64,000 nt of DNA from Ectopseudomonas mendocina. GTDB lineage: Bacteria > Pseudomonadota > Gammaproteobacteria > Pseudomonadales > Pseudomonadaceae. The stretch's first letter is position 1. Every line of letters starts with the position of its first letter. A program made the translations under genes and the position numbers. The notes below the pieces were generated by a model. It did no database searches. It was given only the letters and a program-made list of their open reading frames with translations, and was not told the origin of the DNA. Below, piece after piece: positions 2-25,339 of this stretch. Where the stretch lies: positions 124,001 through 188,000 of the forward strand of contig NZ_JADTQG010000010.1 of assembly GCF_016008875.1 (NCBI RefSeq). Reading direction: 5' to 3'.

Positions 2-772
2 CTGAGCGAGCCGCGCGCGGTGGATCGCTCGATTGCTTCGCTGGCTGCGGCCAGCATCTATAGCACCGATCATCACCTGGCCCTGGCACGCTCGCAGACG
101 AGCGGCGGGCATGATCCCGAGGCACTGGTCGAGCGTCATGTGCGTCGCCTGGAAGCGCTACGTCGAGCCGGTATCGTCGAGCGGCTGGCCGAGGGGGTCT
201 GGCGGGTGCCGACCGATCTGCCCGAGCAAGGCCGGCAGCATGATGCTCGCCGCCTGGGCGACGTCGCCGTCGAGCTGCGCACGCCGCTGCCCCTCGAGCA
301 GCAGGCGCGCGCCGTCGGCGCGACCTGGCTGGACCAACAGCTGATCGGCGGCAACCGCGAGCTGGTCGACAAGGGCTTCGGCAAGGAGGTGCGCGAAGCG
401 TTGCGGCAGCGCGCCGACTTCCTGGTGGAACAGGGGCTGGCCGAACGCCTGGGCCAACGCGTGGTGCTTGCACGCAACCTGCTGGCCACGCTACGCGGGC
501 GGGAGCTGACGGCGGCAGCGCGCGAGATCTCGGAGCAGACAGGTATGCAGTACCGCCCGACGGCGGAGGGCCAGCGCGTCAGCGGGATCTACCGGCGCAG
601 CGTGCAGCTAGCCAGCGGCCGTTATGCCCTGCTCGACGACGGCATCGGCTTCAGCTTGGTGCCGTGGAAGCCGGTGGTCGAGCAGAGGCTTGGGCAGAGC
701 GTGTCGGCAGTGATCCAAGGCAACAGCGCGTCCTGGCAACTGGGTCGCCAGCGCGGGCCGTCGATTGGTTGA
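2..772 (+). CDS. Relaxase, DUF3363 family, C-terminal part (cut by window edge)
   Basis: The reading frame is open to the left edge, so only the last 256 codons are visible and the true start lies outside the window. The sequence matches the C-terminal DUF3363 region of VirD2-like relaxases carried by Tn4371-type ICEs (often called RlxS), including the end section with YRRSVQLASGRYALLDDG and FSLVPWKP. The catalytic Tyr/His N-terminal domain is not visible. Such relaxases nick oriT and pilot the strand through the TraG/Trb channel encoded at 31427-42953. It ends 17 bases before the convergent regulator gene. Family assignment is from recalled similarity; the ICE context supports it strongly. 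Confidence 0.85.
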   Translation: MSEPRAVDRSIASLAAASIYSTDHHLALARSQTSGGHDPEALVERHVRRLEALRRAGIVERLAEGVWRVPTDLPEQGRQHDARRLGDVAVELRTPLPLEQQARAVGATWLDQQLIGGNRELVDKGFGKEVREALRQRADFLVEQGLAERLGQRVVLARNLLATLRGRELTAAAREISEQTGMQYRPTAEGQRVSGIYRRSVQLASGRYALLDDGIGFSLVPWKPVVEQRLGQSVSAVIQGNSASWQLGRQRGPSIG

Positions 773-789: not shown

Positions 790-1644
790 TTATACCAACG
801 CCGGTTCCTGCTGCAACCACTGCTCGAAGTCGCGGCTCTGCGGCATGCCTTCCTTGGCTGCGTAGTAGACCAGCCGCAGGTGGCGATCCTCGTCGATGGT
901 CAGCGTGGTGTGTTCGAACACCACCTGGCCAACCGCTTCGATGTGCAGGTGGCGGATCCCCTGGCACGGGCCGTGGATGTCCTGCTGCCGCCACCAGTCC
1001 CTGAAGTCCGGCGAGGCCTTCTCCAGGTCCTTCACCAGCGCGGCGATATCCGGATCCTGGGTCGCCCGCACGAAGTCGCGGCGAAAGCTGGAGAGGATCT
1101 GCAGCGCCTGCTCATCCCAAGGGTTGAACAGCTCGCGCATGGCCGGGCTGGTGAACAGCATCCACAACAGGTTGCGGCGGTCCGCCGGCAGCGCGGAGAA
1201 ACCGAACACCCGATCCGCCGCGGCATTCCAGGCCAATACGTCCCAGCGCAGGTTGAGCACGTAGGCCGGGCGCGAGGGGATGTCGCCCATCAGTCGGTGA
1301 ATCAGCGCAGGCACCGTGCACCAGGTCTTGCCCGGCTCTGGCGGCAGACGCTGGTGAGCCAGCAGGAACAGGTGGCGACGCTCGGTGGCATCCAGCTTGA
1401 GCGTGCGCGAAAGGTTGTCGAGGAAGGTCGCAGACACGCTGATGTCCCGCCCTTGTTCCAGCCAGGTGTACCAGGACAAACCCACCCCTGCCAGTGCCGC
1501 GACCTCCTCGCGACGCAGCCCTGGCGTGCGCCGTCGACTACCGGCGGGCAGGCCCACCTCCTCCGGCGAAATTCGTTCGCGGCGACTACGCAGGAATTCG
1601 GCCAGCTCTACCCGAGTGCGTTCAGCTGTGCGAGGCGCGCTCAT
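790..1644 (-). CDS. MmyB-like HTH transcriptional regulator
   Basis: A 284-residue protein. An N-terminal XRE-type helix-turn-helix (about residues 35-90, with RREEVAALAGVGLSWYTWLEQGR) is followed by an MmyB-type ligand-binding domain (about residues 105-275, with WDVLAWNAAADRVFG). The start at 1644 was chosen over longer options because GGAGG sits 7 bases upstream. Members usually sit divergent from, and control, an enzyme or exporter gene. Here it is divergent from the aminolevulinate-synthase-like gene, so it is the likely pathway regulator. The effector is unknown. Confidence 0.85.
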   Translation of the reverse strand: MSAPRTAERTRVELAEFLRSRRERISPEEVGLPAGSRRRTPGLRREEVAALAGVGLSWYTWLEQGRDISVSATFLDNLSRTLKLDATERRHLFLLAHQRLPPEPGKTWCTVPALIHRLMGDIPSRPAYVLNLRWDVLAWNAAADRVFGFSALPADRRNLLWMLFTSPAMRELFNPWDEQALQILSSFRRDFVRATQDPDIAALVKDLEKASPDFRDWWRQQDIHGPCQGIRHLHIEAVGQVVFEHTTLTIDEDRHLRLVYYAAKEGMPQSRDFEQWLQQEPALV

Positions 1645-1800: not shown

Positions 1801-3033
1801 ATGTACCAAGCACTTCTTCGGGAACAACTGGAGACATTGAAGTCCTCCAACCAATACCGCACCTTCACCACCCTCAGCCGCATCTGCGGCCAGTACCCGT
1901 TGGCCAAACTGGATGGCTGTGAGCAAGAACCGGTGATGGTCTGGTGCAGCAACGACTACCTCGGGATGTCGCAACATCCTGCAGTGCGCGAACAGATGCA
2001 CGATGCGTTGGAGACCTACGGTGCAGGCTCCGGCGGCTCGCGTAATATCGGCGGTTCGCACGAGGTGTATGCCAGCCTCGAGGCAAGCCTGGCCGACTGG
2101 CACGGCAAGGAAGCTGCGCTTGTTTTTCCCACCGGCTTCGGCTCCAACGATGCCACCCTACAGTGCCTGCTGCGGCGCATCCCCGACTGCGTGGTGATCA
2201 GTGACGAATTGAACCACGCCTCCATCGTCAACGGCATTCGCTCGACGCCCAACGAGCGCAAGATCTTCCGCCATAACGATGTCGAGCATCTGGAGCAGAT
2301 TCTCGCCAGCTACCCGCTGGGTCAGCCGAAGATCGTGGTGTTCGAGTCGATCTACTCGATGGATGGGGACATTGCCCCAATCGCCGAAATCGTTGCGATC
2401 GCCAAGCGCTACAACGCCCTCACCTACCTCGACGAGGTGCATGCAGTGGGCATGTACGGCCCGCGCGGCGCCGGCATCGCCGCCGAGCTGGGTGTATCTG
2501 ATCAGGTCGACATCATCCAGGGCACCATGGCCAAGGCCATCGGTGTAATCGGCGGCTATATCGCCTCGACCCAGGTGATCGTCGATGCGGTGCGCTCCTT
2601 CGCCACAGGTTTCATCTTCACCACCTCGTTGCCGCCGGCGATCACTGCCGGCTGCCTGGCCAGCGTCGAGCACCTCAAGGCCAGCAGTACCGAGCGTGGT
2701 CGCCTGCATGCCCAAACCGCCAAGCTGCGCGAGCGGCTCAAGCATCATGACGTGCCGGTGATGCCCTGCTCGCAGACCCACGTGCTACCGGTGCGGGTAG
2801 GTGAAGCCAAGCGCTGCAAAGCGGCAGCCGAACGTCTGCTGCACAAACATGGTGTGTACCTGCAGCCGATCAACTATCCCTCGGTACCGGTGGGCACCGA
2901 GCGTTTCCGCGTCAACGCCACGCCGAACCACAGCGATACGCAGATCGAGCACCTGGCGCTGTCGCTGCGCGAGACCTTCGAGCATTTCAGCATCCCGCTT
3001 GCGTCCGAGGTGTTCGCTGCGGAGGTGGCCTGA
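1801..3033 (+). CDS. 5-aminolevulinate synthase-like alpha-oxoamine synthase
   Basis: A 410-residue PLP enzyme of the alpha-oxoamine synthase family, close to Rhodobacter-type 5-aminolevulinate synthase (glycine + succinyl-CoA). Visible landmarks: WCSNDYLGM near residue 48, H139 in [17 protein letters not shown] from D211, and the PLP lysine K245 in GTMAKAIG. At the position equal to Thr83 of R. capsulatus ALAS, the glycine-specificity residue in GGTRNISG, this protein has Ser80 (GGSRNIGG). Pseudomonads make heme by the C5 route, so a housekeeping role is unlikely. It leads a tight operon with acetyltransferase, oxidoreductase, amidotransferase and exporter genes. That suggests condensation of succinyl-CoA with an amino acid, perhaps serine, for an antimetabolite. 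Family is certain; substrate is inference. Confidence 0.9.
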
Positions 3034-3034
3034 G

Positions 3035-3538
3035 ATGGAGCAGTCCTTCCTCACCGTACGCCCGGCGACCCAGGCCGACTTGGCCAGCCTGGTGGAGCTG
3101 CGCGCCTATCTGCTGGACGGCACAGCCGCCAGCTATTCGAGCAAGACGCCGGAGGACGCGGCGCACTGGCGGGTGGCCTACCGCACCTGGCTGAGTAGCC
3201 GCCTGAACGACAGCGACTGCGTGCAGATCCTCTCCGCCGAGCACAAGGAATCCGGCCAGGTGCTGGGCTGCGCGACGGCCATCATCGACCAACGCGCGCC
3301 GGCGCCGGGCTGCCTCAACGGCCTGTCCGGCTGGGTGCAGTCGGTGGTGGTGGAACCGCAGTGGCGGGGCCGTGGCATCGCCAAGCAACTGATGCAGCAC
3401 CTGCTGCGCTGGTTCGCCAACCGCGACGTCGGCTGCGTGGTGCTGCAGAGCACCGCGGATGCCGGCACGCTGTACCAGACCCTCGGCTTCGCCGTCAGCG
3501 ACGAGCGCCTGCTGATCCGTCAGGAGGCCTCGGCATGA
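3035..3538 (+). CDS. GNAT-family N-acetyltransferase
   Basis: A 167-residue single-domain GNAT protein. The acetyl-CoA-binding motif is visible as VVVEPQWRGRGIAKQLM near residues 107-123, and the C-terminal part carries the usual LYQTLGF signature. The start lies one base after the stop of the ALAS-like gene, and its own stop overlaps the next start (ATGA), so the genes are translationally coupled. In an alaremycin-type pathway an enzyme of this family would acetylate the new 5-amino group. This is inferred from context, not from the sequence. Confidence 0.88.
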   Translation: MEQSFLTVRPATQADLASLVELRAYLLDGTAASYSSKTPEDAAHWRVAYRTWLSSRLNDSDCVQILSAEHKESGQVLGCATAIIDQRAPAPGCLNGLSGWVQSVVVEPQWRGRGIAKQLMQHLLRWFANRDVGCVVLQSTADAGTLYQTLGFAVSDERLLIRQEASA

Positions 3539-4605
3539 AGATTCTGATCATCGGCCTGGGCTACGCCGGCAACCGCTACCGCCGCGCCTTCGAACATATC
3601 GCCACGAGTACCGGCCTGCCGCTGTCGCTAGCCTATGTCGGGCGTCGGCAGAAGACGACCGAACTGCCCTACTTCGACAACGTTGGCCGCGCGCTGCTGG
3701 TGTTTGAGCCGGACATCGTGGTGGTCAGCGTCAACGACCACAGCCATGCGCCTGTGCTCAAGCAGCTGGCCGGCTACCGGGGCTTCGTGCTCTGCGAGAA
3801 ACCCCTGGTCACGCCTGCTGACGACCTGGATGAGCTGCTCGGTGCGCTAGATCGGATCAGTGGCTTTGCCCTCGACCTGGTTGAGCGCTACTCGGAAGTA
3901 ACCCAGCAATTGCGTGACTGGGTCGAGCGTCACGACTGGCAACTGGTACGCGCCAGCTTTCACTGGGGCAAGGATCGTATCAACGACTACCGCCCCACCT
4001 GCGGCGTGACCAGCGAGGTGATCCATGCCCTGGATCTGGTCGGCTGGATCTGCCCGCGCCCCGGCCAGCTCCAGCTCGAAGGTGTGCTCGGTGTGCGCTC
4101 GGACTTCTCCATCTCCGGCGCAGAGGTGCTCGACACCGTGCAACTCACCGCCAGCCTGGGCGAAGCGCGGATCACCGGTTACGCCAGCTTCGTCAACATC
4201 GTGCGTCAGCGCACCGTGGATTTCAGCTTCGTCGACCGCGACGCCCGGCTGATCCATGCGCGCCTGGTGTTCGACACCCCGCGCTGGGATCACGACCAGT
4301 TGCGTATCTGGACGCGCGCCGCCAACGGCACCGAGGAGCTGCTGCACGAGTTCGCCACCGCTCCCGACGAGCCAGGGCTGGACACCCTGCACAAACTATC
4401 GCGGCTGTGCCGGCAGGTTGTGCGCGCCGTAGCACTCAAGGAGCCGCCCCGCCAACCCTTCGCCGGCCTCGATACCGCCGTGGCGCTGCAACGCCTGCTC
4501 AACGACATGGAAACCCATGCCCAAACCCCAGCACCGGCGCGCTGCGTCCATGGCGAGACGCGCGTGCTGCTGGCCGAGGACAGCGACCTGGAAAGCCTCG
4601 GGTAA
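3535..4605 (+). CDS. Gfo/Idh/MocA family oxidoreductase
   Basis: A 356-residue protein with an N-terminal NAD(P)-binding Rossmann fold (GLGYAGNR at residues 7-14) and the family motif CEKPL near residue 87. The C-terminal half has the beta-sheet substrate domain typical of Gfo/Idh/MocA proteins. The start overlaps the stop of the acetyltransferase gene by four bases. The C-terminal tail after about residue 330 is unlike the family core and may be flexible. In the operon it could carry out the redox or dehydration step that turns a hydroxymethyl side chain into an exomethylene. That role is inference only. Confidence 0.85.
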   Translation: MKILIIGLGYAGNRYRRAFEHIATSTGLPLSLAYVGRRQKTTELPYFDNVGRALLVFEPDIVVVSVNDHSHAPVLKQLAGYRGFVLCEKPLVTPADDLDELLGALDRISGFALDLVERYSEVTQQLRDWVERHDWQLVRASFHWGKDRINDYRPTCGVTSEVIHALDLVGWICPRPGQLQLEGVLGVRSDFSISGAEVLDTVQLTASLGEARITGYASFVNIVRQRTVDFSFVDRDARLIHARLVFDTPRWDHDQLRIWTRAANGTEELLHEFATAPDEPGLDTLHKLSRLCRQVVRAVALKEPPRQPFAGLDTAVALQRLLNDMETHAQTPAPARCVHGETRVLLAEDSDLESLG

Positions 4606-4627
4606 CCCAATCACAAGGAGAACGACT

Positions 4628-6481
4628 ATGTGTGGAATCGCTGGATGGCTGTCCTACAGCCAGAACCTGGAAACGAAACGCGACACCCTGCAGCGCATGA
4701 CCGACACCATGGCCCTGCGCGGGCCTGATGCCGGCGGACTGTGGATCGACGGCCCGGTCGGCCTGGGTCATCGGCGTCTGTCGATCATCGATTTGGAGGG
4801 CGGCCGCCAACCGATGACGGCGATGCACGATGGCCCGCGCGAGGTTGCCGCCATCACCTACAGCGGCGAGGTCTACAACTTCCGCGAGCTGCGCACCGAG
4901 TTGCAGCGACTCGGTCATCAGTTCAAAACCCGCAGTGACACCGAAGTGGTGCTGCGCGCCTATGTCGAATGGGGCGAGGCTTTCGTCGAGCGACTCAATG
5001 GCATGTATGCCTTCGCCATCTGGGACCTGCGTTCGCAAGAGCTGCTGCTGATCCGCGACCGCATGGGCGTCAAGCCGCTTTATTACTTCCCCACCACAGA
5101 CGGCGTGGTGTTCGGCTCCGAACCCAAGGCGCTGCTGGCCAATCCGCTGGTGCCGCGCAAGGTGCGCGCCGATGGCCTGCGCGAAATCCTGGAGATGGTG
5201 AAGACGCCGGGCCATGCCGTGTTCGACGGCATGCGCGAGGTGATGCCGGGCGAGATCGTGCGCATCAACCGCCAGGGCCTGGGCCGCCGCCACTACTGGA
5301 AGCTCGAGGCGCGCGAGCACGAACACACACTGGACGAGACCATCCGTCATACCCGCGATTTGCTGGAGGACATCGTCGATCGCCAGATCGTCGCCGACGT
5401 GTCGCTGTGCAGCCTGCTCTCCGGCGGCCTGGATTCTTCGATCATCACCGCGCTGGCGTCGAAGAAGCTGTTGGCCGTAGGCAAGGAGAACATCCGCTCC
5501 TTCTCCGTCGACTTCGTCGACCACGGCAGCGGCTTCACCGGCGATGCCGTACGCGGTACGCCCGATGCACCCTTCGTGCGCGACCTGGTGGAGAAGATTC
5601 GCTCCAGCCACCAGGAGATCGTCCTCGACAGCCGCGAGCTGGCCGATCCGGCGTTGCGCGCGCAGATCGTCCGCGCCCTCGACCTGCCACCGGCCTTCTG
5701 GGGCGACATGTGGCCATCGCTCTACCGGCTGTTCCAGGAGGTGCGCAAGCACTCGACGGTGGCGCTGTCCGGCGAGAGCGCGGACGAGGTGTTCGGTGGC
5801 TACCGCTGGTTCCACGATCCGGAGGCAATCCAGGCCGACACCTTCCCCTGGCTGACCTCGGTCACCGGCAAGTACTTCGATGGCAAGACCCTGTTCGATC
5901 CAGGACTGCTGGCCCAGCTCGACATGCACAACTTCCTGCGCGACAGCTACACCCAGGCCATCGCCGAAGCGCCGCTACTGACCGGCGAAAGCGCGGTGGA
6001 TCAGCGCATGCGGCAGATGAGCTACGTCAACCTGACCCGCTTCGTGCAAACCCTGCTCGACCGCAAGGACCGCATGAGCATGGCCGTCGGCCTCGAGGTG
6101 CGGGTGCCCTTCTGTGACCACCGCCTGGTCGAGTACGCCTTCAACATCCCGTGGGCGATGAAGGCCTTCGACGGGCGGGAGAAAAGCATCCTGCGCGCGG
6201 CGACCCGCGACCTACTGCCGGAGTCGATCAGCGAACGGGTCAAGAGCCCCTACCCCTCAACCCAGGATCCGGCCTATGAGCAGGCGCTGCGTGATGCCCT
6301 GGCCGCCATCCAGGCGGATCGCAATGCGCCAGTCACGCCCCTGCTCGACAGCGGCCGTATCCAGCAGACCCTGGCCAAGCCGCTCGGCAGCGTCTCGCCC
6401 ATGTACGAGCGCATGGGCATGGAGCTGGCGGTCGGCCTCAATACCTGGCTGAACGAGTACGACGTCAGCCTCGAACTCTAG
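4628..6481 (+). CDS. Asparagine synthase-like glutamine-dependent amidotransferase
   Basis: A 617-residue AsnB-type protein. Cys2 (MCGIAGWL) is the N-terminal nucleophile of the class II glutaminase domain, with RGPDAGG near residue 32 and GHRRLSIID near 49. The synthetase domain carries the ATP pyrophosphatase loop SGGLDSS near residue 267 and SGESADEVFGGY near 385. The start is preceded by AGGAG seven bases upstream. Both half-reactions look intact, so it should transfer ammonia from glutamine to an adenylated carboxylate. Inside this operon the acceptor is more likely the pathway product than aspartate, giving a terminal amide. A plain asparagine synthetase cannot be excluded. Confidence 0.88.
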   Translation: MCGIAGWLSYSQNLETKRDTLQRMTDTMALRGPDAGGLWIDGPVGLGHRRLSIIDLEGGRQPMTAMHDGPREVAAITYSGEVYNFRELRTELQRLGHQFKTRSDTEVVLRAYVEWGEAFVERLNGMYAFAIWDLRSQELLLIRDRMGVKPLYYFPTTDGVVFGSEPKALLANPLVPRKVRADGLREILEMVKTPGHAVFDGMREVMPGEIVRINRQGLGRRHYWKLEAREHEHTLDETIRHTRDLLEDIVDRQIVADVSLCSLLSGGLDSSIITALASKKLLAVGKENIRSFSVDFVDHGSGFTGDAVRGTPDAPFVRDLVEKIRSSHQEIVLDSRELADPALRAQIVRALDLPPAFWGDMWPSLYRLFQEVRKHSTVALSGESADEVFGGYRWFHDPEAIQADTFPWLTSVTGKYFDGKTLFDPGLLAQLDMHNFLRDSYTQAIAEAPLLTGESAVDQRMRQMSYVNLTRFVQTLLDRKDRMSMAVGLEVRVPFCDHRLVEYAFNIPWAMKAFDGREKSILRAATRDLLPESISERVKSPYPSTQDPAYEQALRDALAAIQADRNAPVTPLLDSGRIQQTLAKPLGSVSPMYERMGMELAVGLNTWLNEYDVSLEL

Positions 6482-6566
6482 TCCCCAACCGGATGTGGCC
6501 CCGGTGCGGGGCCGCATCACTCCGCTGTACCACCCACGCGTTCTTGCAACGCAAGCGAGTCCGAGC

Positions 6567-7766
6567 ATGCACACACCCAACCAATCACCCATCTACCTCA
6601 TAGCGCTGGGGGCCTTCGCCCTCGGCATGGCCTCCTACGTCACCGCCGGGTTGATCCCGATGATCGAGGCCTCGTTCGCGGTTTCCGTCGCGGTGGCCGC
6701 CCAGCTGGTCACCGCCTTCACCCTGGCCTACGGCCTGGGTTCGCCGATCTTCGTGGCCCTGACCCCAGCAAATCGTCAGCGCGCCGGCCTGTTGCTAGCC
6801 CTAGGCCTGTTCGTCATCGCCAACGCCGCCAGCGCGCTGGCCGAGAGCTTCACCGCGCTCATGGTCTGGCGCGCCATCGCTGGCATCGGCGCCGGCGTCT
6901 ACCTGGCCATGGGCATCGGCGCCTCGGCCGCCGTGTCCACCCCGGAACGCCGCGGCAAGGCCATCGCCATAATCATGGGCGGCATGGCCAGCGGCGTGGT
7001 GCTGGGCGTGCCGCTCAGCCTGCTGATCGCCGAACAGCTGGGCTGGCAGTCCGCCCTGTGGCTGGTCACCCTGCTTGGCCTGGTGGCCTTCTTCGGCCTG
7101 CTGCTGAAGCTCCCTTCACTGCCTGCGGCCACCGCCACCACGCTGGGCCAGAAGCTGGCGATCCTCGGCGATGGTCATGTGCTGGTCATTCTGCTGGTGT
7201 CGCTGCTGGCCGCCATTGCCAGCCTGGGCATGTACACCTTCATCGCCCCGCTGCTGGCTGACCCGGCCTATGGCGGGGTGCGCTCGGTCACGCCCTATCT
7301 GTGGGTCTGGGGCATCGGCGGCGTGCTGGGCAGCTTCCTGATCGGCCCGCTGGTGGATCGCATCAAGGGCCCGATGCTTACCTTTGCCATCATGCTGATC
7401 CTCGCCGTGTCGCTGTTCGTACTGCCGCTGGCGGCGGCCCTCAGCACCTGGCTGGTGATGCTGCCCATCGCCCTGTGGGGCGCGGTCGGCTGGGCGCTGC
7501 AGGTGCCGCAGAATAACGAGCTGATCCTGGCGCGCCAGGCCCAAGGCGACGGCAACCTGGCCATCGCCCTGAACGAGTCGGCGCTGTACCTGGGCAGCGC
7601 CATTGGTGCCGCGGCTGGCGGTTTCGTGCTGCTGTTACAGCTGCCCACCTGGACCCTGGCTGCCAGTGCCGGCGGTGTCGCCGCGCTGGGCGCCCTGCTG
7701 CAGATCGTCAACCTGCGTCGTCAGCCAAACTGGAACGGCGACGTGCAAGCCGAACCCTACAACTGA
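6567..7766 (+). CDS. MFS exporter, 12 membrane segments
   Basis: A 399-residue major facilitator protein of the DHA1 drug-efflux type, with about twelve hydrophobic segments and no signal peptide. The loop between segments 2 and 3 (near PIFVALTPANRQRAG) corresponds to the MFS signature region. It follows the amidotransferase gene by 85 bases. As last gene of the biosynthetic operon it is the likely exporter and self-protection factor for the product. Family assignment is firm; the cargo is inferred from context. Confidence 0.88.
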   Translation: MHTPNQSPIYLIALGAFALGMASYVTAGLIPMIEASFAVSVAVAAQLVTAFTLAYGLGSPIFVALTPANRQRAGLLLALGLFVIANAASALAESFTALMVWRAIAGIGAGVYLAMGIGASAAVSTPERRGKAIAIIMGGMASGVVLGVPLSLLIAEQLGWQSALWLVTLLGLVAFFGLLLKLPSLPAATATTLGQKLAILGDGHVLVILLVSLLAAIASLGMYTFIAPLLADPAYGGVRSVTPYLWVWGIGGVLGSFLIGPLVDRIKGPMLTFAIMLILAVSLFVLPLAAALSTWLVMLPIALWGAVGWALQVPQNNELILARQAQGDGNLAIALNESALYLGSAIGAAAGGFVLLLQLPTWTLAASAGGVAALGALLQIVNLRRQPNWNGDVQAEPYN

Positions 7767-7779: not shown

Positions 7780-8706
7780 GTGGAACTGCGCCACCTTCGC
7801 TGTTTCATCGCCGTCGCAGAAGAACTGCATTTTGCCCGCGCCGCCGCGCGCCTGCATATCGAACAATCGCCTCTATCGCGGATCATCAAAGAGCTGGAGT
7901 ACCGCCTGGGCGTGCAGCTGTTCGAGCGCACCACGCGGCGCACGCGCCTGACCTGGGCCGGCAAGGTGCTCTTGGAAGAAGCGCGCCGGGTACTCGCTGT
8001 GGTCGACCAGGCCAAGGCCAGCGTCAAGAGCGCAGCGGCCGGCTACCGCGGGCGCATCCGCGTCGCGCTGTCCGACGGCATCCCTCAAGCGCGCCTGGCC
8101 GCCCTGCTCGCCCTGTGCCGCGAAGAAGAACCGGAGGTCGAGATCTGCCTGTCGGAAGTCACCTTCAGCGAACAGGCCAGAGGCCTGAGCGATGACCTGT
8201 TCGACATCGGGCTCGCACAGTCCGACGAGGTGGGCGATGGACTGGTGGCCGAGCCGGTCTGGTTCGATCCGCTGGTGGTGGCGGTGCCTGCCCGCCACCC
8301 GCTGCTGACCTATCGACGCGTGCCGCTCGACGAGGCGGTGCGCTATCCGCTGGTGCTCTGCGATCCGCAGGTCTGCGAAGGCTTCTGGCAACAGCTGCAG
8401 CGGGTGCTGGGCGCTGTGGACACACGGCTGACCATCGCAGACCGCGTCCCCACCCTGGACCTGATGATGGCGCTAGTCGCCGCGGGCTACGGGCTGGGTT
8501 TCTCCAGCCTGGCGCGCATTACCGAACTCAACAACCCGGACGTCGTGGCCCGGCCGCTGGCCGGCTGCCCCGCGATGCTGACCACCTACCTGATACGGCG
8601 CCAAGGCGAACCGGCCGAGCAACTGGCCCGGTTTATTGGCCGGGTGAGCCCGACGGAAAGCCAGGCGTTGCTGCCTAATCACACATTCCACGAGGAGATC
8701 GCTTGA
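7780..8706 (+). CDS. LysR-family transcriptional regulator of the ICE core
   Basis: A 308-residue LysR regulator with the N-terminal winged helix (LRCFIAVAEELHFARAAARLHIEQSPLS, residues 4 onward, abbreviated) and a C-terminal effector domain of the CbnR/ClcR type. GTG is the start, with GGAGGAAAGG upstream. In Tn4371-type ICEs a LysR gene followed by an eexN gene normally sits just before traG, so I read this as ICE core (traR-like), not part of the biosynthetic locus. The gap to the MFS gene is only 13 bases, so read-through from the biosynthetic operon is possible. Confidence 0.85.
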   Translation: MELRHLRCFIAVAEELHFARAAARLHIEQSPLSRIIKELEYRLGVQLFERTTRRTRLTWAGKVLLEEARRVLAVVDQAKASVKSAAAGYRGRIRVALSDGIPQARLAALLALCREEEPEVEICLSEVTFSEQARGLSDDLFDIGLAQSDEVGDGLVAEPVWFDPLVVAVPARHPLLTYRRVPLDEAVRYPLVLCDPQVCEGFWQQLQRVLGAVDTRLTIADRVPTLDLMMALVAAGYGLGFSSLARITELNNPDVVARPLAGCPAMLTTYLIRRQGEPAEQLARFIGRVSPTESQALLPNHTFHEEIA

Positions 8707-8972
8707 TGAAGAAAATATCGTTGCTACTGGCTGCCATGCTGTTGAGCGCATGCGAAAAACCGATGCCGTTTGAGTCGGCTGAAGCGCTTGCGGAGAATCC
8801 CGAGCGGCTCAAAGAACTGCGACTGCAGTGCCGGGACAATCGAGCAAAGTTGGGTGAGGCCCAGTGCAACGCAGTTAGCGATGCCCAGCGCATACGCTTT
8901 ATGGGCGAAGGCACACCCTACACTCCTCACCCCGTCCAATTCTTCCACTCGGGCACTGAAGATGGACGCTAG
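8706..8972 (+). CDS. eexN: EexN-family entry-exclusion lipoprotein
   Basis: An 88-residue protein with a lipoprotein signal peptide ending in LLSAC (Cys17), then a short periplasmic domain with two further cysteines (about residues 39 and 51). It overlaps the lysR stop by one base. EexN-type lipoproteins of conjugative elements are linked to blocking redundant transfer. The segment RFMGEGTPYTPHPVQFF (codons 64-80, 8895-8945) is nearly the same as the C-terminus of TrbJ in this element (38574-38624). The usual neighbour traG is 22 kb away because cargo is inserted in between. Confidence 0.8.
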   Translation: MKKISLLLAAMLLSACEKPMPFESAEALAENPERLKELRLQCRDNRAKLGEAQCNAVSDAQRIRFMGEGTPYTPHPVQFFHSGTEDGR

Positions 8973-9000
8973 GAACGGCACCGGTGAAATGGCTACTTTT

Positions 9001-9041
9001 AATCTGCAGAGCCATATATGCTATATTTTGCTCTACAGATT
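9001..9041. promoter_or_regulatory. Operator/promoter of the RES-Xre pair
   Basis: Two 12-base arms, AATCTGCAGAGC (9001-9012) and GCTCTACAGATT (9030-9041), form an inverted repeat with one mismatch. They flank an AT-rich centre with TATATGCTATATTTT, which can serve as a -10 region. It lies 16 bases before the antitoxin start, where autoregulation by a Xre/ParS antitoxin would act. Confidence 0.7.
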
Positions 9042-9057
9042 AAATCAAGGGCTCCCC

Positions 9058-9465
9058 ATGACAGCTGCCGCCATCCAAGCTCAGGACTTCTCGAAAAACC
9101 AGTGCGCAGCCGGCCTGCGTGCCGCGCTGAACATCCTGGACAAGTGGAAGGCCTCTTGCGAGCAGGCCTGCCGGGTGCTGCGGATTTCCCGCAGCACCTA
9201 CACCCGCGCCAGTCAGAAGGATTCGGCGTGGGCGGTGAGCCTGGACTCCGATCAGATGCAGCGCATCAGTCTTGTGCTGAACATCCACGCGGCACTACGC
9301 GTTGTGTTCGACAACCCCGAGAACGTCTACGGTTTCCCCTCGATGGAGAACCGCAATGAGTTCTTCAACGGTCGCGCGCCGCTCGACATCATGACGCAGG
9401 GCGACATGATCTCGCTGTACGAGACGTTCCGGCGGATCGACGCGCTGCGAGGCGCCCAGTGGTAA
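9058..9465 (+). CDS. Xre/ParS-type antitoxin (DUF2384) of a RES-Xre system
   Basis: A 135-residue protein with an N-terminal helix-turn-helix (about residues 35-70) and a C-terminal DUF2384 (Xre-MbcA-ParS) domain showing NRNEFFNGRAPLDIMTQGD near residue 98. This domain neutralises the partner RES toxin by burying its active site. The start at 9058 places the palindromic operator directly upstream. The stop overlaps the toxin start (TAATG). Such pairs stabilise mobile elements, which fits its place in ICE cargo. Confidence 0.88.
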   Translation: MTAAAIQAQDFSKNQCAAGLRAALNILDKWKASCEQACRVLRISRSTYTRASQKDSAWAVSLDSDQMQRISLVLNIHAALRVVFDNPENVYGFPSMENRNEFFNGRAPLDIMTQGDMISLYETFRRIDALRGAQW

Positions 9466-10175
9466 TGCTCGACGATCTTCCCCGCCTGGAAGGTGAGAGC
9501 CTGCAGGCCTACCGCTTGGTCAACTCCAAGTTTCCGCCCATTGCCCTGTTCGACGACGTCGCCGACGCAGAGGACTTCGAAGCCCTCTATCAGATCCAGG
9601 CGCTGACCAATCCACGGCTGCAGAACGAAGTTGGTCGTCTGGAGCTGATTCCGCGCGACCAGATCCCGTTCGGCATTCCTGGGTGTTCGTATGCGACAGC
9701 GCCCTTCACCCACGTCAACCCGGCCGGCTCGCGCTTCAGCAACGGCAGCTTCGGCGTGCTCTACCTGGCCGACAGGATGGACACCGCAATTGCAGAGGTG
9801 CGTCATCACCAGGAGCATTACTGGTCGAATGTGCCGGAACTCAACTATGAGCGTTTCGTCTTCAGAGGGCTGACCGCCAGCTTCAGCGACAGTGAGATGA
9901 GAGACGCCACAGCACTGCCGCTTTCAGACCCCATCTATGCGCCGGATGACTACGCACACTCGAATCGATTGGGAAGCGAAGTGAATCGAGCGGGATACCC
10001 AGGACTGCGCTACCACTCGGTTCGCGCTCCGAACAACATCTGCTGGGCCCTGATGACGCCGCGACCTGTTACCTCGATCATCCAGAGCGCGCATTTTGAA
10101 ATGATCTGGAGCGGGCAAGTTATTAGTGTCAATCAGATCACGACACTTCTAGCCACGTTGCTGAAAGCGGGCTGA
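9465..10175 (+). CDS. RES-domain toxin (NAD+-depleting)
   Basis: A 236-residue RES family protein. The family's conserved Arg, Glu and Ser lie in AYRLVNSKF (near residue 21), RFSNGSFGVLYLADRMDTAIAEVRHH (abbreviated, around residue 90) and YHSVR near residue 185. Characterised RES toxins degrade NAD+. The ATG at 9465 overlaps the antitoxin stop, so the two are translationally coupled. All three motif regions look intact, so the toxin should be active. Confidence 0.88.
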   Translation: MLDDLPRLEGESLQAYRLVNSKFPPIALFDDVADAEDFEALYQIQALTNPRLQNEVGRLELIPRDQIPFGIPGCSYATAPFTHVNPAGSRFSNGSFGVLYLADRMDTAIAEVRHHQEHYWSNVPELNYERFVFRGLTASFSDSEMRDATALPLSDPIYAPDDYAHSNRLGSEVNRAGYPGLRYHSVRAPNNICWALMTPRPVTSIIQSAHFEMIWSGQVISVNQITTLLATLLKAG

Positions 10176-12767: not shown

Positions 12768-14309
12768 ATGAGCAGACACTGGTTTACCCGATACGCGCTG
12801 ACATCGATGCTCTTAGTGGGAGGCTGCTCACTTCAGCCCCCCTACCAGGCACCGAAACTAGACGTCCAGCCGCGCTGGTCAAATACACCAAGCGATTCTC
12901 AGGCCTTCCAGTTACCCCGAGTTGCAGACTGGTGGCTGCAGCTGCATGACCCTGCCATCAATGAGCTGATCGCGTCAGCGATCCTCGATAGCCCCAATCT
13001 TGCTCAAGCGGCTGCCCGCGTCGATGAAGCCAGGGCCGCTCTGTCTCTCAGCCGCGCACAGCGTTTTCCCCTTCTCACGGCCGATGGCTCTATTACTCGG
13101 GGTAATTCACAGAGTCAGTCCGCGGGAGGTGCTTCAGGAAGCAGTGACCCGGTAAACATTACCGCAGCATCGTTGGGGCCATCGCTCAGTTGGGAGCTGG
13201 ATCTATGGGGCAGAGCCCGATCCGTAGCAGAGGCATCACGGCTCCGCTTAGACGCTCGCAACGCAGACGCTGAAGATGCGCTGCTCTCACTGTCCGCTCA
13301 GATTTCTGATGGTGTCCTGAATCTGCGTGCGTGCCACTACTCCCTGGCCATTCGTGACCAGGACATAGTCTCCAGGCAAACCGAACTCACCTTGATGCGA
13401 CAGCGCCTGGCACTCGGTAACGTTGCACCAGTGGATGAAGCCAATGCGATAAGCAGTCTGGCCAGCGCCCACACAAATCGGCTGAGTCAGCAAGAAAGCT
13501 GCACGCAGCTGGAAAACGCCTTGGTGACGCTGAGCGGTCGTGATACCGGAACGATTCGACATCTGATGAAGGCTGCGTATGCAGCCAGAGAAACCCCCGA
13601 CACGACTGGAAATCCCCACCAATACCTCTCGGCCACAGTGATACCTGTAGCTCCGCTAGTACAACCGCGCCTCCCTGCCATCGTTCTCACGCAGCACCCT
13701 ACTGTTCGCAGCGCTGAGCGGGAGGTTGCGGCAGCCTACGCCGAAATTGGTGCTTACCGAGCCGAACGTCTGCCCCAGGTCGACCTGTCGTTGCTCCTTG
13801 CCGGCCAATGGATCCACGCTCTGGGCTCAACCACGTACAACGACACCTGGTCAGTAGGATCCGCGCTCTCCATGCCGATCTTTGATGCCGGTGCCGGTGC
13901 GGCCAATGTCCGCGGTGCAGAAGCTCGGTACAGGGGAGCGCTGGCCAACCTGCAAGCCGCGTTAAGAACGGCGACCCAGGAAGTTGAAGACGCCCTGGCA
14001 ATGCAGCTATCCGCCAGGCAGCGACTGGTGACATCTCAGCAATCAGTGACAGCCGCCCGGCAAGTTATGCGCAGTGATGAAGCTCGTTATCGACTGGGGG
14101 CTATCAGCCTATTTGAACTGGAGGGAACTCGCCGGCAGCTCAATACCACCCAGGAAAGTGCCATCGCCGCTCAACGGGATAGTGCCAGCGCTTGGGTAGC
14201 ACTAGTACGGGCTTCGGGTAACTCGCTCTCAAACGTTCCACTGGCGCAGACAACCGCTCCCCAGTTGAACACTCTTCATACCGATAAGAACGGCAGCAGT
14301 GCCCAATGA
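12768..14309 (+). CDS. RND efflux outer-membrane lipoprotein (NodT/OprM type)
   Basis: A 513-residue outer-membrane factor with a lipoprotein signal peptide (LLVGGC, Cys20) and two long repeat halves of the TolC fold. WELDLWGRARSVAEASR marks the first half and GLGAISLFELEG-like RYRLGAISLFELEGTRR the second. Start is preceded by AGAGGA. It forms the exit duct for the adaptor and pump encoded immediately downstream; its stop overlaps the adaptor start (ATGA). Moderate GC suggests an origin different from the biosynthetic locus. Confidence 0.9.
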   Translation: MSRHWFTRYALTSMLLVGGCSLQPPYQAPKLDVQPRWSNTPSDSQAFQLPRVADWWLQLHDPAINELIASAILDSPNLAQAAARVDEARAALSLSRAQRFPLLTADGSITRGNSQSQSAGGASGSSDPVNITAASLGPSLSWELDLWGRARSVAEASRLRLDARNADAEDALLSLSAQISDGVLNLRACHYSLAIRDQDIVSRQTELTLMRQRLALGNVAPVDEANAISSLASAHTNRLSQQESCTQLENALVTLSGRDTGTIRHLMKAAYAARETPDTTGNPHQYLSATVIPVAPLVQPRLPAIVLTQHPTVRSAEREVAAAYAEIGAYRAERLPQVDLSLLLAGQWIHALGSTTYNDTWSVGSALSMPIFDAGAGAANVRGAEARYRGALANLQAALRTATQEVEDALAMQLSARQRLVTSQQSVTAARQVMRSDEARYRLGAISLFELEGTRRQLNTTQESAIAAQRDSASAWVALVRASGNSLSNVPLAQTTAPQLNTLHTDKNGSSAQ

Positions 14310-15421
14310 CTTCAACGACCCCGAGTTCGAACACCCCCACTCTTCGATCGCGAAAGCGTTTCATATACGTATTTGTGGCAGCAACCATCATAACAGTGAC
14401 GATGCTTTTTGCTTTGGGCACTAAGCACGACTCCCCCGACGAAGAGGCACAGCTGGGCACCGCAGCGTTGGCTGTCACCAGCACTCGCCCACGTGCGGTC
14501 ATATGGCCAGAAACACTGCAGGCGTCTGGAGGAATCTCAGCCTGGGAGGAGGCTAGCATTGGCGCTCAGATCGGCGGGTATCAGCTGGCAGAAGTCCGGG
14601 TGAACGTCGGCGACACCGTAAAAAAAGGGCAGGTGCTTGCCCGATTTGACCGAGCATTGCTGTTGGCAGAAAAAGCGCAGTTACAGGCGAACGCTGACCA
14701 GGCCGCAGCCAACCGACAACGTGCGCTTGGCCTGAAGAGCAGCGGGGGCATCAGCGATCAGGATGTACTGCAGTTTGTTACCCAATCCAAAGCGGCTGAC
14801 GCACAACTCGCCTACAAGCAGTTGGAGCTGCGTTATGCCGATGTACTGGCTCCCGATGATGGGGTGATAAGCGCCCGTTCAGCCACGCTCGGTTCGGTCG
14901 TGCCGGTCGGACAAGAGCTGTTTCGCATGATTCGCCAGGGGCGCCTGGAGTGGCGCGGCGAACTTACCGCAGCTCAACTCGCAAAAATCCAGATCGGCCA
15001 GGAGGTGGCGCTTGCTCTGCCTGATGGCAGTTCGGCGACCGCACTGATTCGCCAAACATCGCCATCACTCGACGAAGATACGCGTCTTGCCATCGCCTAC
15101 GCCGATATCCAACCAGGAAGCCATGCGCGTGCGGGTATGTATGCGAACGGTAGCGTGCAACTTGGTGATAGCCCGGCCCTGGTCGTACCTGCCGAAAGCA
15201 TGGTCATTCGCGACGGGCGTAGCCATGCGCTCACGCTGGCCAACAGCGACAGCATCACTTCCGTATCGCTCCGTGAAGTCGTCGTCGGGCGGCGAGTTGG
15301 TAGAGAAGTTGAAGTAACCACTGGGCTCGATTCCGAGGAGCAGGTGGTGGTAAAGGGGGCAGGATTTCTCAAGGATCGTGATCTGGTGCGCGTCGTGCCC
15401 AGCGGAGCGGCCAAGCAATGA
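14306..15421 (+). CDS. RND efflux periplasmic adaptor (membrane fusion protein)
   Basis: A 371-residue adaptor with one N-terminal membrane segment (about residues 17-36). The biotinyl-lipoyl-like half GYQLAEVRVNVGDTVKKGQVLARFD is near residue 92, followed by a coiled-coil hairpin and the second lipoyl half DVLAPDDGVISARSATLGSVVPVG near residue 186, then beta-barrel and membrane-proximal domains. It overlaps both neighbours by four bases. It links the inner-membrane pump to the outer-membrane duct. Confidence 0.9.
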   Translation: MTSTTPSSNTPTLRSRKRFIYVFVAATIITVTMLFALGTKHDSPDEEAQLGTAALAVTSTRPRAVIWPETLQASGGISAWEEASIGAQIGGYQLAEVRVNVGDTVKKGQVLARFDRALLLAEKAQLQANADQAAANRQRALGLKSSGGISDQDVLQFVTQSKAADAQLAYKQLELRYADVLAPDDGVISARSATLGSVVPVGQELFRMIRQGRLEWRGELTAAQLAKIQIGQEVALALPDGSSATALIRQTSPSLDEDTRLAIAYADIQPGSHARAGMYANGSVQLGDSPALVVPAESMVIRDGRSHALTLANSDSITSVSLREVVVGRRVGREVEVTTGLDSEEQVVVKGAGFLKDRDLVRVVPSGAAKQ

Positions 15422-18400
15422 ATTTCGCTACCTGGTCGATCCGCAACCCTATCCCTTCGATCCTGCTGTTCGTCCTCCTTGCTCTGGCAGGACTATGGGG
15501 TTTCCGGCAGCTTCCAACTCAGGATTTGCCTGACTTCGACCTGCCAATGGTGACCGTTACCCTGACGCAGCCAGGCGCAGCACCGGCGCAGCTGGAAACA
15601 GAGGTCGCACGCCGGGTTGAAGACTCTCTCGCTACCCTGAACGGTCTCAACCATCTGCGCACCTCGATCACTGATGGTCTGGTCTCTATTCAGGTTGAGT
15701 TTGTCCTGGAGAAGAAACTTTCGGATGCGCTGATCGAAACCAAAAATGCAGTCGACAGTATCCGTACCGAACTGCCTGCCGATCTGTTGCAACCGACGGT
15801 AAGTGCCTCGACCAGTGTTGGTCAGCCGGTGCTGACCTACGCCATATCGTCCGCTCGCCTAGACGAGGAGCAATTGTCCTGGCTCGTCGACGACAGGGTT
15901 GCCAAGGCGGTTTTGGCAGTTTCTGGGGTCGGCCGCTTTGAGCGGCTAGGCGGGGTCGAGCGCGAGGTACGAATAGAGGTAGACCCGCAGCGCATGCAAG
16001 CGCTTGGCGTTACAGCCGCCGACGTGTCGAATGCCTTGCGCCAGATACAGCTGGAATCATCCGGAGGGCGCGGACAATGGAGCGGTGAAGAGCAGTCAGT
16101 TCGAACCATTGCCACTGTGCGCCAGGCCTCTGAGCTCAAAGAGCTACGTATATCGCTACCAAGTGGAAAGAGTTTTCGCCTCAACCAGATCGCAAGGATA
16201 GAAGATGGCCCGGCAGATCCCACTCAAGCTGCCCTGCTGGATGGCAATCACGTTGTCGGGTTTAACGTCTATCGCGCCAGGGGCTTTGACGAAGTTCGCT
16301 TGGCCGAAGGCGTTAGAGAGGCTCTACAGGATCTCCAGCAGAATGAGCCGGACCTCAAATTCAGTGAGATATCCGGCTCTGTAAGTCAGACGGTCGAGCA
16401 GTACGAAGGCTCAATGACAATGCTGTACGAAGGCGCATTGCTGGCCATGCTGGTGGTTTGGATCTTTCTGCGCGACTGGCGGGCAACTCTGATCGCCTCC
16501 GCTGCCTTGCCCTTATCCATTCTGCCTGCCTTCGCCGCCATGGCTTGGCTCGACTTCACGCTCAACACCGTCACGCTGCTGGCCCTAGCGGTGGTAGTGG
16601 GCATTCTCGTCGATGATGCGATTGTCGAGATCGAGAACATCGAGAGACATCGACACATGGGCAAGTCCATCCGCGAGGCTGCGGAGGATGCCGTCAACGA
16701 GATTGCACTAGCGGTGATGGCCACCACCATGAGTCTTGTCGCGGTCTTTCTGCCGACCGCGCTGATGAGCGGCATTGGTGGCTTGGTCTTCAAGCAGTTC
16801 GGATGGACCTCTGTAATCGCGGTGCTGGCATCCCTGCTGGTAGCCCGTCTGCTAACGCCGATGATGGCGGCCTACATGCTCAAGTCCGAGCCGATGCCGC
16901 CGCATCAGGATGGCCGCATCATGCAGTGGTACATGTCAGCCGTGCATTGGTGTCTGGCACACCGCAAGACCACGGTGGGCGGCGCACTGGCCTTCCTGAT
17001 TGCCTCACTTGCTCTAGTGCCCCACATCGAGACTGGCTTCATACCGCCAGCCGATGGCAGCAGCACCATGGTGACCATAGAGCTGCCACCTGCCAGCTCG
17101 CTGGATGACACCCTGGCCGTGGCCGAAGAAGCACGCCATGCCTTGCAGGATGTCGCGGGGATAGAGCACGTTTTCACGACGGTGGGCGCTGCGCAAAGTG
17201 CCGGCCAAGGTGCTTCCGCCCCCGGAGAGGTTCGTCGAGCGTCTATTACGCTGACGTTTCTTCCCCGAGGCGAACGGGACTCTCAACAAGCCATTGAAGA
17301 CAGGGTTCGCGAACGACTTCAGATGGTGCCAGGAGCTCGCTTTTCGCTAGGTAGCGGCGCGCCAAGCGAGAAACTCCAGATCATTCTTGCCAGTGACAAC
17401 GCCGACGCTCTTAAGGTCAGCGCAGAAAAGGTCGAATCGGAGCTCAGGGACGTCAGGGGACTGTTTAACATCACCTCCACGGCTAGCCTTGAACGCCCCG
17501 AAATCATTATCCGCCCTGACGGGCAGCGAGCGGCTGAACTAGGGGTCACCAGTGCTGCGATCGGCGAAGTGGTACGCGTGGCAACCAGCGGCGATTTCGA
17601 CCAGCAGGTCGCTAGACTGAACCTCGACAATCGCCAGCTGTACATTCGTACGCGCCTGCCCGACGAGGCTCGTACCGATACCGCCACACTGGCAAATATG
17701 AGGGTTCCGGGCCGAAATGGCTCAGTGCCCTTGGCCAGTGTTGCGACTATTTCACTGGAAAGCGGCCCCGTACAGATCGACCGTTTTGACCGACTGCGCA
17801 ACATCACCATCTCTGCCGACCTAGGCGGTACGGCCTTGGGCACGGCTCAAGCAGCTGCCGCCAAGCTGCCTTCGATTCGAGCACTGCCATCCACTGTGAA
17901 AGTCATCGAAGCAGGTGATGCCGAGATTGTCGCAGAGCTGGGCATGGGCTTCGCCATGGCGCTCGTAGTCGGCGTGTTGTGCATCTATTGCGTCCTCGTG
18001 CTGCTGTTCGGTGATTTCCTTCAGCCCGTCACCATTCTCTCGGCAATACCTCTGTCCATAGGCGGGGCGTTTCTCGCACTTTTGATAGGAAACAGCCTGC
18101 TCAGCGTGCCCTCAATGATTGGCCTGGTGATGCTCATGGGCATCGTTACCAAGAACTCGATTCTGCTTGTGGATTACGCCGTCATGGGGCGCAAGAAGGA
18201 TGGTCTTTCTCTGCACGAGGCATTGGTAGACGCCTGCCACAAACGCGCGCGCCCCATCGTGATGACGACCATCGCGATGGTCGCAGGCATGTTGCCCATC
18301 GCGCTGGGGTTCGGAGCTGATTCGAGTTTTCGTCAACCCATGGCAGTTGCCGTGATTGGAGGCCTGATCACCTCTACCGCGCTCAGCCTACTCGTCGTTC

Positions 18401-18492
18401 CAGTGGTGTTCACCTATGTGGACGGCTTCGAACGTCGACTAGCAAAACTCTTCCACCGTCGTCCTCCAGAACCTCAGCTAGAAAGGAGATAA
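15418..18492 (+). CDS. RND efflux pump, HAE1-type inner-membrane permease
   Basis: A 1024-residue AcrB-like permease with twelve membrane segments and two large periplasmic loops. The proton-relay acidic pair is visible in segment 4 (VGILVDDAIVEIENIERH, near residue 397), and a conserved lysine lies in segment 10 (GIVTKNSILLVDY, near residue 909). Length is normal for the family. Substrates cannot be told from sequence. The operon continues into envelope and redox genes, which hints at efflux of a toxic organic compound. Confidence 0.92.
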   Translation: MNFATWSIRNPIPSILLFVLLALAGLWGFRQLPTQDLPDFDLPMVTVTLTQPGAAPAQLETEVARRVEDSLATLNGLNHLRTSITDGLVSIQVEFVLEKKLSDALIETKNAVDSIRTELPADLLQPTVSASTSVGQPVLTYAISSARLDEEQLSWLVDDRVAKAVLAVSGVGRFERLGGVEREVRIEVDPQRMQALGVTAADVSNALRQIQLESSGGRGQWSGEEQSVRTIATVRQASELKELRISLPSGKSFRLNQIARIEDGPADPTQAALLDGNHVVGFNVYRARGFDEVRLAEGVREALQDLQQNEPDLKFSEISGSVSQTVEQYEGSMTMLYEGALLAMLVVWIFLRDWRATLIASAALPLSILPAFAAMAWLDFTLNTVTLLALAVVVGILVDDAIVEIENIERHRHMGKSIREAAEDAVNEIALAVMATTMSLVAVFLPTALMSGIGGLVFKQFGWTSVIAVLASLLVARLLTPMMAAYMLKSEPMPPHQDGRIMQWYMSAVHWCLAHRKTTVGGALAFLIASLALVPHIETGFIPPADGSSTMVTIELPPASSLDDTLAVAEEARHALQDVAGIEHVFTTVGAAQSAGQGASAPGEVRRASITLTFLPRGERDSQQAIEDRVRERLQMVPGARFSLGSGAPSEKLQIILASDNADALKVSAEKVESELRDVRGLFNITSTASLERPEIIIRPDGQRAAELGVTSAAIGEVVRVATSGDFDQQVARLNLDNRQLYIRTRLPDEARTDTATLANMRVPGRNGSVPLASVATISLESGPVQIDRFDRLRNITISADLGGTALGTAQAAAAKLPSIRALPSTVKVIEAGDAEIVAELGMGFAMALVVGVLCIYCVLVLLFGDFLQPVTILSAIPLSIGGAFLALLIGNSLLSVPSMIGLVMLMGIVTKNSILLVDYAVMGRKKDGLSLHEALVDACHKRARPIVMTTIAMVAGMLPIALGFGADSSFRQPMAVAVIGGLITSTALSLLVVPVVFTYVDGFERRLAKLFHRRPPEPQLERR

Positions 18493-18496
18493 GCGC

Positions 18497-19306
18497 ATGA
18501 CCCGAGAACTCGTGACCCGACCATTCGCTCTGCCCACATTGGCGTGCTTGTTCGGTATCCCAGCGAGTCCATTGCTGGCGCAAGAGCAATCGGAAAGTCC
18601 ATGGCGGATTGGTTTGGGCGTCGGTGCAATCCATGCGCCGGAGTATTTGGGCAGCGATGAATCCGAATCCCAACCTCTGCCACTGGTCAATATCCGCTAC
18701 CAGCGATTCTTTTTTGGTGGAGCACCGGGGTCAGGCCTGCCTGGTCCCGGGCTGGGCGTATACCTGCACGAAAGCGAAGCCTTGACCTTAGGAGCGGTAC
18801 TAACCAGGGATTTAGGAGACCCGAGGGAGGAGTCGGATGATCACCGTTTGCAGGGGTTAGGTGATATCGACGCAACGACCCGTACAGGCCTGTTTGGTAG
18901 CTATCGCGCCGGATGGTTTTCGCTCAACGCTAATGTACTTTCCGACATCGGCGGCAACGAACAAGGCACTACTGTCAGCCTGGACGCCAAAGCAACATAT
19001 CGCCCTTCTCAAAAGCTCCAGCTATCAGCTGGCCCCGGCATCACCTGGGGAAGTAGCGACTACATGCAAACCTTCTTCGGCATCGATCAGAGCCAAGCAG
19101 TCCACTCAGCCTATTCACCATATGACGTTGGCAGTGGTGTTTCACTACTGCGCTTCTCCATTGGCGCCAACTACCAACTGGCCAGCCGATGGGCATTGGG
19201 AGCAAGCCTCACAGCGGCTCGCCTTCAAGGCGATGCGGCAGATAGCCCAATCGTTCAAGACAAGAACCAGAACAGCTACGCCGTTTTTCTGATGTACCGC
19301 TTCTGA
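18497..19306 (+). CDS. MipA/OmpV-family outer-membrane protein
   Basis: A 269-residue beta-barrel protein with a cleavable signal peptide (cleavage near ALLAQ, residue 29). It has the MipA/OmpV pattern IGLGVGAIHAPEYLGSDES at the N-terminus and a terminal aromatic residue in AVFLMYRF, typical of Bam-inserted barrels. It starts four bases after the pump gene, with AAGGAGAT overlapping the pump's last codons. MipA-type proteins are associated with envelope scaffolding or small-molecule passage. The exact role here is unknown. Confidence 0.88.
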   Translation: MTRELVTRPFALPTLACLFGIPASPLLAQEQSESPWRIGLGVGAIHAPEYLGSDESESQPLPLVNIRYQRFFFGGAPGSGLPGPGLGVYLHESEALTLGAVLTRDLGDPREESDDHRLQGLGDIDATTRTGLFGSYRAGWFSLNANVLSDIGGNEQGTTVSLDAKATYRPSQKLQLSAGPGITWGSSDYMQTFFGIDQSQAVHSAYSPYDVGSGVSLLRFSIGANYQLASRWALGASLTAARLQGDAADSPIVQDKNQNSYAVFLMYRF

Positions 19307-19344
19307 ACCTTGCCAGTGCCAACGGTCACGTGGAGTACATAGAC

Positions 19345-20262: not shown

Positions 20263-20264
20263 CC

Positions 20265-21545: not shown

Positions 21546-21607
21546 GTTCTAGCGCATCCCGAATATTTCCTATAGCCAGATCAATGCTTCATCTTGCGAG
21601 AAAAAAC

Positions 21608-22540: not shown

Positions 22541-22914
22541 TCTGACGGCTGGATACCCTGTCTTTAGCAGCACCATCTCAGATCTAAGTATGTATAGCTG
22601 GAGGGACGAAGATCCACTTGTGGCCCAGAGTGTGTAAAACACCCGAACATACCCTTGCTGTGATTTCTGAGAATTTCATCGCAAGGGATGCCCATGCAAC
22701 GGTTTATCCAGGGTGAACACCGAGGTCAAAGGACCCAGCCTTTACTGCTTTAGAGGCCATCAATACGTCATGAAGCCCCAAGAGCGTTAGCGCCGCTGAT
22801 CGTGGCGAACGCTCGGGCTATCTTAACGACTAGGAACTGCGCTCGTACTCACCAGCGCCTCAAATATGTTTTTGGGCTTACTCCATGAACGAGAGCAGTG
22901 ACTCAGAGCCCCGG
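22541..22914. other. Gap without a recognisable gene
   Basis: About 370 bases between the converging reductase and cupin genes. It holds the 7-base inverted repeat CCCTTGC (22652-22658) / GCAAGGG (22681-22687). No T-run marks a terminator, and I see no coding frame with a family match. Confidence 0.4.
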
Positions 22915-23310: not shown

Positions 23311-23346
23311 GTTGTTGTCGCCTCATGCGGACAGGGGTGGAAGACG

Positions 23347-23366
23347 ACTATGCCACGTGACATAGT
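23347..23366. promoter_or_regulatory. 20-base palindromic operator between cupin and tetR
   Basis: ACTATGCCACGTGACATAGT is palindromic at 18 of 20 positions. It lies 37 bases upstream of the cupin start and 48 bases upstream of the tetR start. This is the expected binding site for the TetR protein, controlling both genes. Confidence 0.65.
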
Positions 23367-23413
23367 GCCACGACTGAGACTACATCAAATATGACAGATG
23401 GCATAATCAAAAC

Positions 23414-24022: not shown

Positions 24023-24064
24023 GTCCTGCACAGGGGCCTGAAAGATCAGGCCCGACGCCGACAC

Positions 24065-24541: not shown

Positions 24542-24622
24542 ATCCAGTACCGTTCAGGGCGCCACTCAGGTGAAGGATGCTGACCAGTACCCAGTCCGCT
24601 GGTACCCCAGGGGACAAGGTTT

Positions 24623-25192: not shown

Positions 25193-25247
25193 TTCCTGCT
25201 CTCGATAATGCGGGCTGATCATACGACATAAGCCATGTCTTCTCAAT

Positions 25248-25296: not shown

Positions 25297-25339
25297 AAGT
25301 AATAATTCACTGCCTAACCCATCGCAGGAGAAGCATCTC

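Follow-up and report, generated by a model that had tools for sequence, protein, structure and literature searches.

Why does a pseudomonad that makes heme by the C5 route carry, on a conjugative element (ICE), an operon headed by an ALAS-like enzyme, and what might that operon make? The window analysed here is a 64,000-nucleotide stretch of Ectopseudomonas mendocina DNA (NZ_JADTQG010000010.1, positions 124,001-188,000, forward strand; the surrounding genome is 5.13 Mb) in which an ALAS-GNAT-Gfo/Idh/MocA-AsnB-MFS operon occupies 1801-7766 with every reading frame intact. The best-supported reading is that of an alaremycin-type cassette, with the amide as its probable end product. Gene families were assigned by Pfam and NCBIfam profile matches, and the parts of the cassette and its element are as follows (window coordinates).

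20-772, forward strand: ICE relaxase DUF3363, C-terminal part (PF11843, 324 bits); the full ORF is open and starts upstream of the window.
790-1644, reverse strand: divergent MmyB-like transcriptional regulator, HTH_31 plus MLTR_LBD (MLTR_LBD, 149 bits); kept alongside the cassette in relatives.
1645-1800, no strand: divergent intergenic/promoter region, with AAGGAG upstream of the ALAS start (from sequence).
1801-3033, forward strand: ALAS-like alpha-oxoamine synthase (TIGR01821, 547 bits, cut-off 338.55; PDB matches 2bwn and 7x98).
3035-3538, forward strand: GNAT N-acetyltransferase, gap of 1 after ALAS (PF00583, alignment).
3535-4605, forward strand: Gfo/Idh/MocA-family protein, 4-base overlap with GNAT (PF01408, alignment, model and fold search).
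4628-6481, forward strand: AsnB-like glutamine amidotransferase of the TsnB9-like subfamily, gap of 22 after Gfo (TIGR01536, 499 bits; 7ylz, 573 bits).
6567-7766, forward strand: predicted MFS exporter, gap of 85 after AsnB (PF07690; distantly similar to Cmx/CmrA exporters).
7780-8706, forward strand: LysR-family regulator, 13 bases after the MFS gene (PF03466/PF00126); kept in most relatives.
31391-42953, forward strand: TraG coupling protein and Trb-type mating-pair genes (TrbB, TrbE, TrbL, TrbF, TrbG, TrbI).
46874-48067, reverse strand: ICE tyrosine integrase (PF00589).

The ORFs and profile matches agree with an earlier note on this DNA in the five same-strand genes, their families and spacing, and the divergent MmyB-like regulator; the LysR gene had been overlooked there. 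Directly after the cassette, at 8770-10175, lie genes for a RES-domain toxin and an Xre-like antitoxin, which occupy the same spot in several related ICEs.

The cassette follows the DUF3363 relaxase gene and precedes traG. A relaxase, a coupling protein, mating-pair genes and a tyrosine integrase are all present, and the ICE location claimed previously is thereby borne out. TraG/VirD4, TrbB, TrbE, TrbL and CagX/TrbG were matched by profile at 31.4-41.7 kb, TrbF and TrbI were assigned by position and by conservation in relatives, and ORFs resembling ArdA, RepA, ParA and TraF lie ahead of the relaxase, left of the window (translations read by eye; conserved in relatives). A search for attachment-site direct repeats gave none that was convincing, the sole exact match being 14 bases long and away from the element ends. 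The same element occurs in Pseudomonas sp. AOB-7, where it lacks the RND cargo and its integrase is 65% identical. The other cargo of the window, at 12768-30957 and apparently missing from AOB-7, consists of outer-membrane efflux and RND pump genes, an alpha/beta hydrolase, a zinc-type dehydrogenase and an AMP-binding enzyme.

The host genome encodes one glutamyl-tRNA reductase (GluTR) and one HemB, and contains no second ALAS above the cut-off. The host thus makes heme by the C5 route, as had been supposed. Neither another HemB nor any other obvious immunity gene came to light, and a producer would therefore depend for its protection on export or on the product being an amide.

In a C5-route host the operon might simply provide extra heme, with an ordinary ALAS giving ALA and neighbors that are unrelated to it. 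The ALAS does score above the heme ALAS equivalog cut-off (TIGR01821). However, in a tree of 39 rows a branch (98/97) divides the 16 cassette ALASs, that of the window included, from 20 heme-type ALASs, which are mainly alphaproteobacterial and are labeled by taxon and sequence rather than by assay, the heme and cassette labels reflecting context. The residue of the window enzyme that corresponds to R. capsulatus Thr83 is Ser80 (site mapped on 2bwn). At this site the window and the 15 other cassette sequences extending across it all have serine, whereas all 20 heme-type enzymes have threonine. Close co-conservation of the ALAS with GNAT, Gfo and the exporter across phyla also argues against extra heme supply, which we regard as highly improbable. 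Judged by its sequence, the cassette ALAS is not a heme enzyme. The earlier note had named grouping with housekeeping heme ALASs beforehand as a result that would count against its reading; the tree gives no such grouping.

Thr83 of ALAS directs amino-acid specificity, and serine at position 83 is crucial for cyclizing ALAS (PMC4525017). As Ser83 is also found in cyclizing C5N ALASs, including the C5N-type ALAS of S. clavuligerus (L112), serine at this site fits the use of serine as substrate without proving it. The cassette ALAS could instead be a cyclizing enzyme that forms the 2-amino-3-hydroxycyclopent-2-enone unit, with the operon making a C5N-like amide. A T365S-like substitution, described together with T83S for cyclizing ALAS (PMC4525017), is present in the gammaproteobacterial AsnB-bearing copies and in Rahnella, although the Bacillota cassettes retain threonine at that position. 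Actinomycete C5N cassettes (PMC4525017) likewise contain a secondary-metabolite ALAS with T83S, but the acyl-CoA ligase and amide synthase found there are missing from the operon and unseen in the relatives read, whereas GNAT and Gfo do not belong to the C5N gene set and are absent from those cassettes. The S. clavuligerus ALAS, in contrast, does adjoin ligase-like and PKS-like ORFs (read by eye). The AMP-binding ORF on the ICE (26112-27911) lies 19 kb off, outside the cassette. A cyclizing ALAS is thus very unlikely here. Note that Burkholderia stagnalis (L113, 5974-8980) has a second kind of Ser83 ALAS at a different ALAS locus, with genes for TauD and ketoacyl-ACP synthase III next to it.

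In the alaremycin-type reading the neighbors of the ALAS all have a place. An ALAS distinct from heme ALAS, an N-acetyltransferase, an oxidoreductase-family protein and an MFS exporter lie in one operon. The alaremycin (alm) cluster of Streptomyces sp. A012304 is said to have been described by Okui et al. in 2025 as an ALAS homologue, an N-acetyltransferase, an oxidoreductase and an MFS exporter. These are the same four functions as in the ALAS-GNAT-Gfo plus MFS sets, a likeness that is by description of functions and not by sequence. The present locus differs from the alm cluster in its additional AsnB and two regulators, its pseudomonad host and its ICE location, and in having sister cassettes on plasmids. 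Primocarcin, from Nocardia, is the amide of alaremycin, and is the product type to be expected of an ALAS, a GNAT, a dehydration and an amidation.

From this gene content we infer the following reactions, product and activity. The ALAS-like enzyme would use L-serine (not glycine) and succinyl-CoA to form 5-amino-6-hydroxy-4-oxohexanoate, the GNAT protein would acetylate the amine of this amino ketone, and the Gfo/Idh/MocA protein would remove the 6-hydroxyl, yielding alaremycin (5-acetamido-4-oxo-5-hexenoate). The AsnB-like protein would then use glutamine to convert the carboxylate to the amide (primocarcin-type), and the MFS protein would export the product, with the MmyB-like and LysR proteins as putative regulators of the cassette. 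In cells other than the producer, the compound would block porphobilinogen synthase (HemB), either as such or once the amide has been lost. Alaremycin inhibits the P. aeruginosa enzyme, PbgS (PMC12670364). We speculate that amidation may keep the compound masked within a producer with a single HemB. The description of the locus as alaremycin/primocarcin-like in the earlier note stands as to gene content, ALAS lineage, host route and ICE, whereas the end product is a prediction.

We propose the Gfo protein for the dehydration step. Its EKP lysine (Lys89) and His164 are conserved in 14 of 14 Gfo sequences, and Ser160 aligns throughout these sequences with the catalytic aspartate of the inositol dehydrogenases. 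Loss of this aspartate fits a non-redox reaction, and gives a hint of one. An AlphaFold model of the protein (pLDDT 79) has the Gfo fold, and the fold search returned generic Gfo/Idh/MocA relatives only, among them inositol dehydrogenases and an NAD-dependent glycoside hydrolase.

Gfo also served as the marker in surveys of distribution. The cassette marker was present in 25 of 298 Pseudomonadaceae genomes including the present one, that is, in 24 of 297 others. Of 369 genomes sampled across the class, 3 matched (own included), and in a Bacilli sample of 300 only the centre genome did so. An ALAS query at 1e-90 matched 0 of 95 other near relatives, although the larger family sample shows that other members of the genus carry the cassette. 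A neighborhood search had been suggested for the ALAS-GNAT-Gfo/Idh-AsnB order in other ICEs, and the order indeed recurs, mostly beside ICE genes: 19 of 20 further Pseudomonadaceae loci have the order regulator-ALAS-GNAT-Gfo-AsnB-MFS (the remaining one is a partial remnant), the LysR gene is also present in all but one of these 19, and ICE genes lie within about 9 kb in 17 of the 20. The distance from relaxase to Gfo, calculated from coordinates, is 2.74-2.77 kb in 12 genomes, own included. The Halomonas cassette (L005) has AsnB but no ICE gene within 10 kb. Over nine comparisons the dN/dS values of all six genes were 0.03-0.27, indicating purifying selection. With the order conserved in 19 of 20 loci and such dN/dS values, the arrangement is far beyond chance, and the locus, far from being a one-off, is cargo that recurs on pseudomonad ICEs. 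In Pseudomonas sp. BN417 (L011, 10001-11228) the ALAS is broken into two frames near residue 108, and the remaining cassette genes are intact.

Sister cassettes that lack AsnB and consist of ALAS-GNAT-Gfo plus MFS were found on three plasmids, namely Parageobacillus pGEOTH01, one of Rahnella aquatilis and one of Staphylococcus capitis (9.3 kb), and also in a gammaproteobacterium from a different family, where the contig is chromosomal or unplaced. In the ALAS tree the AsnB-bearing cassettes form a single clade with the AsnB-less Rahnella cassette as sister, which suggests one gain of AsnB. Immediately upstream of ALAS-GNAT-Gfo in Parageobacillus L009 is a SerA-like dehydrogenase ORF (identified by eye only), which would fit a supply of serine.

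AsnB bears on the end product. Its Cys2, SGGLDS and GESADE motifs are intact, and an AsnB 53% identical to it lies within a Rhizobium phenazine locus. The nearest PDB relative is 7ylz, a hydroxyamidotransferase of the TsnB9 type (573 bits, versus 142 for E. coli AsnB). The subfamily, 7ylz included, has serine in the NGEIYN stretch in place of the E. coli AsnB asparagine that is presumably Asn74, and the nitrogen donor is thus uncertain. This substitution and the kinship with a hydroxyamidotransferase would suit a variant of the scheme in which the same scaffold yields a free acid (alaremycin or its 6-hydroxy or dihydro form), AsnB serving some other end, such as making a hydroxamate or attaching another amine, and the AsnB-less cassettes indicate that the core works without AsnB. 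On the other hand, AsnB is always in the operon in the pseudomonad/Halomonas clade, at dN/dS of 0.05-0.11. Hydroxamate formation requires the TsnB6/7 amide oxygenase pair (PMC13418202), and no such pair was recognized among the cassette-adjacent genes (by recognition, no dedicated search). The free-acid variant is therefore unlikely, and we favor the amide. Phenazine-1-carboxamide is the product of PhzH, which belongs to the class II amidotransferases and is related to asparagine synthetases (PMC6060551). As PhzH and the trichostatin-type TsnB9 (7ylz) illustrate, carboxylates of natural products are substrates of AsnB-type enzymes, although the substrates of these two differ from the one proposed here.

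New here is a mobile alaremycin-type cassette with a predicted amidation step; the alaremycin-type gene set itself was already known. In searches on alaremycin, primocarcin and ALAS loci on ICEs or staphylococcal plasmids, the cassette was undescribed in the literature covered, most subscription journals lying outside that coverage. There are few bacterial poisons of heme synthesis, and Streptomyces is the recorded source of the alaremycin pathway. The ability to make such a poison appears to spread between species. If the proposed chemistry is right, PbgS inhibition would be a common, transferable weapon, a four- to six-gene cassette carried by about 8% of the sampled Pseudomonadaceae genomes and also by plasmids of a skin staphylococcus, thermophilic bacilli and a plant-associated Rahnella. 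A serine-using ALAS, a Gfo-fold dehydratase and a carboxylate-amidating AsnB would be gained as small, easily expressed enzymes, and how a producer protects its own HemB would become a testable question. A wider picture, which we put forward tentatively and with some doubt, is of a family of heme-precursor antimetabolite cassettes that ICEs and small plasmids carry between Proteobacteria and Bacillota, much as happens with bacteriocin genes, and whose pseudomonad branch gained an amidotransferase; the masked amide made by this enzyme would spare the single HemB of the producer and lose its mask in the target cell.

Viral contigs scanned with Gfo gave no match. Phage ALAS matches were set aside as relatives, being only about 28-35% identical and of BioF/Kbl type where annotated, and AsnB matches on Streptomyces megaplasmids (L083 and L084) were rejected as alm clusters, their surroundings lacking any homologue of ALAS, GNAT or Gfo. 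Cassette-type ALAS genes with a DMT-family transporter gene nearby and no GNAT or Gfo homologue are found in Brevibacillus (L010, 10001-12138), Priestia (L088, 8001-9233) and Macrococcoides canis (L090, 6791-8857). The ALAS gene of the S. capitis H17 plasmid (L087, 3990-5173) is unannotated and matches as two separate pieces, and the copy on the S. capitis DSM 20326 plasmid (L089, 825-2012) is intact.
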